From an uncultured Clostridia bacterium (GTDB lineage: Bacteria; Bacillota; Clostridia; Christensenellales; UBA3700): a stretch of 32,492 nucleotides of DNA. The stretch lies in NCBI GenBank assembly GCA_944383935.1, contig CALWRK010000006.1, forward strand, positions 1-32,492, written 5' to 3'. Each line of letters opens with the position of its first letter. The stretch's first letter is position 1. A program made the position numbers and the translations under genes. Positions 19,250 to 21,987 of this stretch are shown piece after piece. The notes beneath the pieces were generated by a model. The model ran no database searches, was not told the DNA's origin, and saw only the letters and a program-made list of their open reading frames with translations.

Positions 19250-19275
19250 GGCAGTCCCGCCGCGGCGGGACTGCC
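19250..19275. repeat. 26-bp near-perfect palindrome
   Basis: GGCAGTCCCGCC at 19250-19261 and GGCGGGACTGCC at 19264-19275 form a perfect 12-bp inverted repeat around a GC centre; the central GC is itself self-complementary. It is followed by ATTATAATTAT, so on the plus strand it could act as a weak terminator. Its right arm is the beginning of the 45-bp tandem repeat downstream, which suggests that the palindrome seeded the array. Confidence 0.85.
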
Positions 19276-19400
19276 ATTATAATTATACTTGCGTAATGGC
19301 TCCCGCCATGCGGGACTGCCATTATAATTATACTTGCGTAATGGCTCCCGCCATGCGGGACTGCCATTATAGTTATACTTGCGTAACGGCTCCCGCCATG
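19266..19400. repeat. 45-bp tandem repeat, three copies, each with two alternative hairpins
   Basis: Units start at 19266, 19311 and 19356 and are nearly identical over 45 bp; a degenerate remnant continues to about 19412. Within a unit GCCATTA and TAATGGC can pair across a 14-nt loop, while at unit junctions CCCGC-CAT-GCGGG flanked by ATGGC/GCCAT forms another hairpin. The two cannot form together because they share the ATGGC/GCCAT arms. The reverse frame is open through the array, but this follows from a period divisible by three. No gene is seen in 19191-19492. REP/BIME-like element or structured RNA are the candidates. Confidence 0.85.
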
Positions 19401-19492: not shown

Positions 19493-19801
19493 ATGAGGAA
19501 ATTTAATTTTTTCACATGGATGATAAGTTATGACGCAAAGCCCTTATCCTATCGCATATGGGTGATGGTCGTATTTCCCATACTGTTCATCATGTGGCTG
19601 AGCGTGCAATTCGTGTTCACGCAGCTGGTGGGAGAGTATTTCCTCTATTTTGCGCTGCCGTTTGCTGCGGTGGGGCTGGCGTGGGACGCCGCGATCTATT
19701 TTTACTATCGCCATATAGGCGCATTCGATGAAAACGGCTGTTTGAAAGAGGGATTTCCCCGTAAATTTTCCCTGAGGAAGAAGGCGGACAAGGGGCAATA
19801 A
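19493..19801 (+). CDS. Small membrane protein of unknown function (102 residues)
   Basis: A basic, aromatic-rich N-terminus (MRKFNFFTW) is followed by two membrane segments (about 22-44 and 49-71, the second ending WDAAIYFYYRH) and a basic C-terminal tail rich in Lys. I do not recognise the family. The ATG at 19493 is preferred over an upstream TTG at 19445 because the strong promoter overlaps that longer reading frame. No ribosome site precedes it, and the promoter position predicts a leaderless transcript. The next small membrane protein gene follows 27 nt later, so the two may be transcribed together. Confidence 0.6.
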   Translation: MRKFNFFTWMISYDAKPLSYRIWVMVVFPILFIMWLSVQFVFTQLVGEYFLYFALPFAAVGLAWDAAIYFYYRHIGAFDENGCLKEGFPRKFSLRKKADKGQ

Positions 19802-19828
19802 AGGAGCTTTTTGCGCATATAATCTAGC

Positions 19829-20251
19829 GTGAACGGAATGCGCATTGTGAAATATCTTTGGGCTGCGGCGCTTTCAATGGGCGTCGTATTGATTTTTTGT
19901 TCTCTCTCTTCGTTTGTGGGCGTATATCTGGGCGGAAGGGAGCGCACTCTCACGTTAAACTTGCTTTGGGGTGCGGATTATGCTTGCATCACCGCCGCCA
20001 TGACTCGGCTGGCGGTGAAGGGGAGATGGAGGACATATTTTGCCTGCATAGCCCTGCTTATCTTATATATATTTCGCCGCGCCGCCACCGCAGCGGGTGC
20101 GGACATAGCGCCCGCCATAATGGTCGTGATATCCGTATATTCGGCTTTTATTTGCTTTTTTGCGTCCAAAGAGGGGCTTGGCGGGATTCTCTTTTTTCCC
20201 GTCGTACTCTGGCACATATATCTGAGCGGTCAAATGCTCGGCTTGTTTTAG
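19829..20251 (+). CDS. Small polytopic membrane protein of unknown function
   Basis: The product is 140 residues from GTG 19829 or 137 from ATG 19838. It is strongly hydrophobic, with about five membrane segments (approximately 8-30, 41-60, 68-84, 91-112, 116-136) and short basic loops. I see no family motif. Neither start has a nearby ribosome site: an AAAGGAG at 19800-19806 is too far away, and a TATAAT at 19818-19823 would start a transcript near 19830. The in-frame stop just upstream (TAA, 19820-19822) limits where translation can begin. Location after another small membrane protein suggests a pair, but there is no evidence of a joint role. Confidence 0.55.
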   Translation: MNGMRIVKYLWAAALSMGVVLIFCSLSSFVGVYLGGRERTLTLNLLWGADYACITAAMTRLAVKGRWRTYFACIALLILYIFRRAATAAGADIAPAIMVVISVYSAFICFFASKEGLGGILFFPVVLWHIYLSGQMLGLF

Positions 20252-20273: not shown

Positions 20274-20302
20274 TTGCAGTAATCGCGCGTATTTGATATA
20301 AT
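20274..20302 (+). promoter_or_regulatory. Promoter of the panT-coaX-hom operon
   Basis: TTGCAG (20274-20279), 17-bp spacer and TATAAT (20297-20302), with an extended -10 TG at 20294-20295. Initiation should be near 20309, leaving a leader of about 100 nt before the ATG at 20411. Confidence 0.8.
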
Positions 20303-20308
20303 AGACAA

Positions 20309-20410
20309 ACAAGGTATATCGTAGCGGAGGTACATTCGACCTTACGCCGCAAGAGATATGGCTTGGAATAAGGCTTAGATAGGCATCGCAAGAGCCTAAT
20401 CGGAGAGTAC
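20309..20410 (+). promoter_or_regulatory. Structured 5' leader of the pantothenate transporter operon (candidate riboswitch or cis-RNA)
   Basis: The leader can fold into at least two hairpins. The first pairs GCGG (20324-20327) with CCGC and AGGT with ACCT around ACATTCG, leaving a 4-nt bulge on the 3' side; it may be enclosed by ATATC/GATAT. The second pairs GATAGGC (about 20378-20384) with GCCTAATC (about 20394-20401), one bulge, directly before the GGAGAG ribosome site. No terminator T-run is present, so any control would act on translation. It does not match the riboswitch cores I can recall (TPP, FMN, cobalamin, THF, preQ1). Reading it as a regulator is inference. Confidence 0.4.
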
Positions 20411-21202
20411 ATGAAAAGGAAAATATCCGCAAAAACGATAGCCATAACGGCTATATTAACGGCATTGGAGATAATATTTGTCTTCGTGCAGACGCCGCCG
20501 ATCGCCGGCGCAACGCTCGCTTTCTGTCTGGTCCCGGTACTCGTTTCGGCTATGACGCAAAAGAAGGGAGTCACGGCGTTCTTGTCCGTCTTAATGGCGT
20601 GCGGTATGCTTGTTTCGGCATATACGGTGGGCGCAGGGTCGTTGCTCGCTCCCGTATTCCGAAATCCGCTTGTGGCAATTCCGCCCAGACTTATGGTGGG
20701 TGTGGTGGCGTATCTGTCTTACCACGGGCTGAATAAAAGAGTGGATCGGCGGTTTAATGTCAAATTAGCTGCCCTTCCTCCGGACAGCGTGGAATATAAG
20801 GCGACGAACAGGAAAAAGCAGGCGGCTGTATACGGCGTTTCCGGCTTCACCGCTTTTGTGGGAACGCTCACTAACACCGCGCTGGTGTGCCTCATGATAT
20901 GGCTTTGCTACATCGTGGGCGATATGGAGATAGACAGTGCGCTTCTGCCGCAATTCTTCCAAGTAACGCTTGCGGTGAACGCGTCCATAGAAGTGGCGGC
21001 TTTCACGATATTGGTACCGCCCATCGTCGCCGCTTTGCATAAGGCGGGGTATGGAGTGAACAAGGGCGTGAAGAGTGTGCGTGCCGCGTCTGAAACGCAG
21101 GGCGCAGCGGAGGAGGCTTCTTCAAAAGCCACTCTTATTCAAGAGGACGAGCGAGAAGACGCCTTGACGCAGGAAGATATAGGGGAAGATAAAAAGGTAT
21201 GA
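20411..21202 (+). CDS. ECF transporter substrate-binding (S) component, probable pantothenate (PanT-like)
   Basis: A 263-residue membrane protein with about six hydrophobic helices and the ECF S-component pattern: a basic KRKISAKTIAITAIL start, the loop RNPLVAIPPRLMVG, and later GTLTNTALVCLMIW. The S component binds the vitamin and works with a shared EcfA1-A2-T module, which is not encoded here. Pantothenate is inferred from the 4-bp overlap with the pantothenate kinase gene. The helices end near residue 215 and a long acidic, probably disordered tail follows, which is unusual for this family and does not look like a transport element. GGAGAG lies 3-4 nt before the ATG. Confidence 0.8.
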   Translation: MKRKISAKTIAITAILTALEIIFVFVQTPPIAGATLAFCLVPVLVSAMTQKKGVTAFLSVLMACGMLVSAYTVGAGSLLAPVFRNPLVAIPPRLMVGVVAYLSYHGLNKRVDRRFNVKLAALPPDSVEYKATNRKKQAAVYGVSGFTAFVGTLTNTALVCLMIWLCYIVGDMEIDSALLPQFFQVTLAVNASIEVAAFTILVPPIVAALHKAGYGVNKGVKSVRAASETQGAAEEASSKATLIQEDEREDALTQEDIGEDKKV

Positions 21203-21987
21203 TACTTGCTATAGACATAGGCAACACAAATATAAAAGTTGGCTTGTTTTCGGGGAACGAGCTGGTGCACGCATGGCGTTTTTCCGTCACGCTGCGCACC
21301 GCCGACGAGATAGGCGCGGAGCTGAAAATGCTGCTCATGAATGAGATAGACGACATCTCGCGCATAAAAGGCATAATAATGTCCTCTGTCCAGCCCGATC
21401 TCAACTACACCATGGAGCACGCCTGTCAGTATTACTTCGGTTTCAAGCCGATAATGGTCGGAGTGGGCATAAAGACGGGTCTGAAAATAAAATATACCAA
21501 TCCACAGGAAGTGGGCGCGGACAGAATAGTAAACTGTGTGGCGGCATATAAGCTGTATAAAGGTCCGTGCATAGTCGTGGATTTCGGCACTGCCACCACC
21601 TTCAACTACGTCACAAAAGACGGGGAGTTCATGGGTGGTTGCATAGCCCCCGGCATTAAGACGAGTTTGGACAGCCTTGTGGAGCATACCGCCCGTCTGC
21701 CCAAGATAGAGCTTATCCGCCCGGAAACTATAATCTGCCGCAACACGGGCAATAATATGCAGGCGGGGCTTATTTACGGCTATACCGGGCTTGTGCAGTA
21801 CATCTTGGAGCGCATGAAGAGGGAGTGCGGAGAAGAGGACGTTAAGGTGGTGGCAACGGGCGGTTTAAGCGAATTGGTGCGTTCCGTGCCCGATGAAAAG
21901 ATAATAGATATCGTGGACAGATCTCTTACATTAAAGGGATTGAAGATAATATACGACATGAATAATACCAAAAAGACAAAGGAGTGA
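21199..21987 (+). CDS. coaX: Type III pantothenate kinase
   Basis: A 262-residue ASKHA-fold enzyme. DIGNTN (5-10) is the ATP phosphate-binding motif, GADRIVN (106-112) carries the catalytic Asp108 and pantothenate contacts, DFGTATTF (128-135) is the second phosphate motif, and GGCIAPG and VVATGGLSE follow. It phosphorylates pantothenate, the first step to coenzyme A, and as a type III enzyme it should need a monovalent cation and escape CoA feedback inhibition. Its ATG overlaps the end of the transporter gene, giving an uptake-and-trap pair. All family motifs are present at normal length. Confidence 0.96.
   Translation: MILAIDIGNTNIKVGLFSGNELVHAWRFSVTLRTADEIGAELKMLLMNEIDDISRIKGIIMSSVQPDLNYTMEHACQYYFGFKPIMVGVGIKTGLKIKYTNPQEVGADRIVNCVAAYKLYKGPCIVVDFGTATTFNYVTKDGEFMGGCIAPGIKTSLDSLVEHTARLPKIELIRPETIICRNTGNNMQAGLIYGYTGLVQYILERMKRECGEEDVKVVATGGLSELVRSVPDEKIIDIVDRSLTLKGLKIIYDMNNTKKTKE

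Follow-up and report, generated by a model that had tools for sequence, protein, structure and literature searches.

Riboswitches that respond to THF, TPP, FMN and cobalamin occur before vitamin transporters. Coenzyme A is a conspicuous gap among the ligands of such RNAs (PMC9971707), and the described RNA most similar to the one considered here is the pan motif (RF01749, Weinberg et al. 2010), for which the published downstream genes are panB, panC and the gene of aspartate decarboxylase (PMC2864571). Its discoverers suggested that it binds a protein (PMC2864571), PMC4342826 lists it as pan-panBCD, and the open-licence literature that we searched gave no ligand for it and described it only with biosynthesis genes (PMC2864571; PMC4342826). 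Here we present a leader from an uncultured Clostridia bacterium that, as judged by comparison of sequences, has the build of a pan RNA and is very probably related to pan.

The window, i.e., the whole stretch of DNA that was analysed, is 32,492 nt long, and the leader occupies positions 20303-20410 of its forward strand, between a TATAAT box and the start codon of an S-component gene at 20411. The putative promoter (20274-20302, + strand), recognised from its sequence and from relatives with a like layout, is made of TTGCAG at 20274-20279, a 17-nt spacer and TATAAT at 20297-20302, and this placement makes a transcript start near 20309 plausible. The original prediction had called the promoter strong; its -35 box, however, agrees with the consensus at 3 of 6 positions and is so weak that the promoter is absent from a consensus promoter scan. 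The genes 3′ of the leader, earlier described as those for pantothenate uptake and its kinase, can now be named with more precision: panT (20411-21202, + strand) encodes an ECF transporter S-component (PF12822, 5.8e-13) and adjoins coaX (21199-21987, + strand), encoding a type III pantothenate kinase (PF03309, 5.4e-73; NCBIfam NF009855 above cut-off), after which comes a homoserine dehydrogenase gene. The best PDB matches of the panT product are weak, namely 4rfs_S (E 0.036) and 6zg3_C (E 0.2), both of which we take to be ECF pantothenate transporters. Directly 5′ of the leader, positions 19493-20251 hold two small ORFs that match nothing in Pfam or NCBIfam, and at 19250-19400, 5′ of two small unassigned ORFs, a sequence of about 60 nt (GGGACTGCCATTATAATTATACTTGCGTAATGGCTCCCGCCATGC) is repeated in tandem in near-identical copies.

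The whole conserved element, a putative panT-type pan RNA, spans 20322-20413 (+ strand), which is the extent matched by two covariance models: R1, built from family leaders with the window's genus in training and no pan locus, and R2, built without the window's genus and with three pan loci. Two hairpins on the + strand form its core, P1 (20324-20347) and P2 (20378-20401), each backed by covariation in alignments A1, A3 and A4 and by a descriptor test. P1 has an outer GCG/CGC, a middle stem of 5 bp, GAGGU/ACCUU (20327-20331 with 20339-20343), and bulged adenines at A20332 on the 5′ side and A20344 on the 3′ side; P2 has an outer GA/UC, a middle stem of 5 bp, UAGGC/GCCUA (20380-20384 with 20394-20398), bulged adenines at A20385 (5′ side) and A20399 (3′ side), and an inner UC/GA that closes a GCAA loop. 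The Shine-Dalgarno GGAG (20402-20405, + strand), identified from its sequence, begins right where P2 ends, 5 nt 5′ of the start codon, and its placement directly 3′ of P2 is kept in relatives, which have GAGG or GGAGG there. The expectation of two hairpins, with the second reaching the ribosome site, is upheld by the relatives. An outer stem, P0 (20310-20365, + strand; 20310-20320 with 20355-20365), appears in the minimum-energy fold and is found in the window's genus only, whose members pair there with different sequences, most clearly in G003 (AUGCCGAACGU/GCGUUCGGCAU). The minimum-energy fold also offers a slightly shifted register for P1 (GCGG/CCGC); this is disfavoured by the relatives, and 20324-20347 is preferred. 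For the 108-nt leader the predicted folding energy is -31.1 kcal/mol (z = -3.3, equalled by 0 of 200 shuffles), although folding of a single sequence is modest evidence because other cuts of the leader give weaker z values of -1.4 and -2.5. The descriptor, which asks for both hairpins with two bulged As each, 5 pairs between them and 2 outer pairs, matches the window and 2 of 30000 shuffles.

Each of the 6 genomes of the genus has the S-component gene, as do 43 of 46 in the family. The element lies 5′ of panT in nearly all the same-family genomes sampled, and it recurs before panT in further families of the order and throughout the class. Most family leaders carry GAU-GGGU-A-UC...GA-ACUC-AAGCGAGG directly 5′ of the start codon, and an upstream hairpin of the form NNNN-R-CGGU-AC...ACCG-UA-NNNN is likewise common to most of them. 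P2 reads AGGC/GCCU in the window's genus and GGGU/ACUC in most relatives, its outer stem is reduced in the window's family, and the bulged As are invariant or near-invariant among relatives. An exact-pattern scan of GTDB contigs returned 18 records, all bearing the names Clostridia, Clostridiales or Christensenellaceae/Christensenella. Some relatives depart from the common form: in L026, L030 and L031 about 20 to 190 nt are inserted in the P2 loop with the core of the element intact, and in L027 and L032 P2 is kept while P1 is unrecognisable at its usual place, with Ns nearby in L032 and a possible insertion in L027.

When 33 family leaders were aligned with MAFFT, 97% of the cells were paired, 12 of 17 pairs had double-sided changes, and the covariation score was 0.605, compared with 0.294 +/- 0.017 for shuffled alignments and at most 0.14 with the partner strand slid; a second MAFFT alignment scored 0.691. 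Double changes were seen in 18 of 19 pairs among 48 sequences running from the window type to the panB type, in an alignment that was fitted to the covariance model (score 0.691 vs 0.245 +/- 0.013 shuffled). RNAalifold recovered both hairpins unaided, plus the pair that positions a bulged A. This comparative evidence is decisive, and the leader is a conserved, covarying RNA. The original prediction had proposed a structured leader, and had named homologous leaders devoid of conserved structure as the finding that would speak against it; covariation was run on the panT leaders of relatives, and structure is conserved there, in favour of the proposal.

Over the genomes of the class, R2 finds the element in 56 of 391, with E-values down to 1e-10. 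Thirty loci were read, among which 25 enter an S-component-like start codon directly, 3 precede an OPT-like gene and 2 have no ORF called; all 8 downstream proteins tested match PF12822, one of them just below cut-off, and coaX comes next after the S-component in most loci. Elsewhere, in further families and orders, the RNA stands before an S-component gene, mostly with coaX, and no hom gene was detected nearby. An amino acid of the hom branch (threonine, homoserine), once thought conceivable as the ligand, is therefore unsupported, and was rejected on gene context. RF01749 pan RNAs occur in 39 of 291 class genomes, with the same five-pair distance between the bulged As, and several loci bridge the two types: 5 of 16 panT-type loci score above the RF01749 cut-off, and panT-type loci in other orders reach 37-43 bits; G293, a genome of the class, has a pan RNA above cut-off followed by an S-component and CoaX; and G532, G353 and G338 each contain both types, at different loci.

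Other neighbours were also observed. In L129, L131, L160, L164 and L168, which come from related genomes (f57), the pan RNA ends at the ATG of an ORF of about 10 codons, some 160 nt 5′ of an OPT-family gene; to our knowledge, no OPT protein carries pantothenate. Many class pan RNAs, among them those at L104, L105, L107 and L109, precede a Rossmann-type reductase-like protein (IGFIGAGKVG..., with PF01408/PF03807 matches) that is possibly a ketopantoate reductase, an enzyme absent from the published list of pan genes. At L171, a Clostridiales-2 RNA (RF02937, 81.8 bits; 2447-2527, + strand) lies 3′ of the panT-type locus.

Regarding the signal, a search of the 45 family genomes, in which the positive controls worked, detected PanB in none and PanC above cut-off in none, so import of pantothenate is predicted for these organisms and a biosynthetic intermediate is unlikely to be sensed. 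Ketoisovalerate, ketopantoate, pantoate and beta-alanine are thus unlikely, and the signal would most simply be pantothenate, its phosphorylated forms or CoA. The tie to pantothenate and CoA suggested at the outset is upheld, and the role of the leader is probably regulatory.

Our best explanation, which we regard as likely, is that the leader is a divergent cis-regulatory RNA of the pan family, of a translational panT type, that would repress panT-coaX when pantothenate or CoA is ample. Architecture, covariation, gene linkage, the absence of PanB/PanC from the family and profile similarity to pan RNA all point to it; the direction of control, the identity of the signal, and the nature of the effector, be it metabolite or protein, are what we infer on top of them. 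Transcription would begin near 20309, and the RNA would fold into a tandem pair of like hairpins, in each of which an outer stem is followed by a bulged A in the 3′ strand, a middle stem of five base pairs, a second bulged A, this one in the 5′ strand, and an inner stem capped by a loop. With ample pantothenate, or a product such as coenzyme A, an effector on the hairpin pair would stabilise P2 and mask the panT Shine-Dalgarno; since the latter starts directly where P2 ends, stabilisation of this hairpin should obstruct the ribosome, with less translation of panT and of the coupled coaX, and scarcity would leave the site open. Repression in times of plenty is what the logic of uptake would suggest.

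The leader of the window has no intrinsic terminator, P2 being directly followed by the start codon, and with the Shine-Dalgarno set against P2 the control is probably translational. Neither a conserved anti-Shine-Dalgarno strand nor a linker helix was found (total pairing score 347 vs 360 for shuffled linkers), so the switching step is built on the adjacency of P2 and the Shine-Dalgarno; in two genera, UUACC/GGUAG or UACC/GGUG does occur with constant spacing. A loose scan with no shuffle control placed a terminator-like hairpin near 23 of 26 panB/C/reductase-type pan loci. Such hairpins there, and the abutting Shine-Dalgarno at panT, suggest the same RNA unit with two likely outputs.

Two finer versions of the best explanation differ in the effector. 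According to the first, to which we give nearly an even chance, the tandem hairpins would bind pantothenate, 4′-phosphopantothenate or CoA with no protein involved, either as one site or as two cooperative sites. The broad distribution in the class with pathway genes in common, the conservation of the bulged As and of the inner-stem letters, the need for a signal that exists without synthesis in a family lacking PanB/PanC, and the place of CoA as a noted gap among riboswitch ligands (PMC9971707) all speak for direct binding, but the hairpins are of simple build and hold few unpaired letters that are conserved, and the discoverers of pan proposed a protein as the binder (PMC2864571). The second version, possible but rather doubtful, has a dimeric protein, CoA-sensing or operon-encoded such as CoaX, binding both bulged-A hairpins and blocking translation. 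Two equal hairpins would suit a dimer, as proposed for pan (PMC2864571), and CoaX comes after panT in most loci; however, the first gene after the pan RNA in the loci read is a pathway enzyme or a transporter and no regulator.

Whether the leader belongs with pan at all was addressed with profile searches. In Rfam 15 the leader of the window has no match at cut-off or at E 10, RF01749 included (its gathering cut-off is 36.2 bits), and no match to any validated riboswitch class. Since it fails this score test, we name it a divergent variant and not an Rfam member. Matches to Yar_1, Gut-1 and other families scored under the cut-off, lay outside the leader and were discarded. Over the family genomes, the best RF01749 match in G010 is exactly the panT leader, at 25.5 bits against the cut-off of 36.2 (E 0.026 over that genome), with a weaker match in G042, and when 20 leader-only pieces were compared with 4227 Rfam families, pan was the sole family reported, in 2 of them (25.5 and 25.2 bits). 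In the opposite direction, R1 scores the window element at 49.0 bits, its genus being in training, and also picks up the pan loci L132, L130, L129, L127 and L131, in each case on the pan site, with a best score of 23.3 bits (E 0.007); its weak matches at L099, L101 and L102 have no S-component gene downstream and were taken as chance. R2 locates the element at 20322-20413 with 26.4 bits (E 4.8e-4 in 32 kb; the next site in the window scores 11.9) and recovers four other members of the window's genus, although its filtered genome-wide search missed G000, found only in the unfiltered window search. Among the 26 panB/C/reductase-type pan loci it matches more than half, either on the pan site or in overlap with it, a result not fully independent as R2 included three pan loci. 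The original statement that the leader fits no familiar riboswitch core stands as far as Rfam is concerned, but has to be set against the architecture, gene context and weak-to-moderate profile likeness that it has to the orphan pan motif.

The blank Rfam result and P2 letters unlike those of panB-type pan RNA are what a separate RNA class, convergent on the two-bulged-A design, would predict; this seems improbable given the models that cross-match both ways (RF01749 to the leaders, R1 to the pan loci) and the bridging panT-type leaders above the pan cut-off 5′ of the same genes. A plain untranslated leader whose hairpins arose by chance, or a stability element of the genus only, would agree with the modest fold z-score of some cuts, yet is contradicted by the covariation and class-wide conservation and has next to no likelihood.

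Taking the divergent pan-family reading forward, the link of pan RNA to uptake genes in genomes with no detectable PanB/PanC suggests that this orphan RNA responds to pantothenate or coenzyme A. We tentatively propose, at somewhat less than even confidence, that pan RNAs, including the translational panT type, are the missing natural CoA/pantothenate riboswitch, with the two bulged-A hairpins as the binding unit. If this is true, the panT-type leaders of predicted pantothenate auxotrophs would be minimal test constructs, and short translational leaders are handy for in-line probing and reporter assays. The widened motif should also help to recognise panT genes among ECF S-components, many of which carry no label.

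Among known systems, the THF, TPP, FMN and cobalamin riboswitches resemble this locus as vitamin-linked leaders 5′ of an ECF S-component, but in Rfam the leader matches none of them. The guanidine-II riboswitch (mini-ykkC) also has two small tandem hairpins and was formerly considered a protein site, which makes it a lead for metabolite binding by such a design; there the loops are conserved and not the bulges, the window has no Rfam match to it, and we know of no sequence relation between the two. From pan RF01749 the window differs in lying below detection by the Rfam model, in its P2 letters, in an outer stem of GA..UC instead of CUG..CAG, and in preceding panT-coaX and not panB, panC or aspartate decarboxylase; many panB/C/reductase-type pan loci have terminator-like hairpins 3′ of the RNA, whereas the window has a Shine-Dalgarno abutting P2. 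With RF01749 it shares the tandem arrangement, which most pan RNAs have, of hairpins whose stems are interrupted by a pair of bulged As with 5 bp separating the two, a similar inner stem, and the genes of the pantothenate/CoA pathway 3′ of an apparent 5′ UTR.
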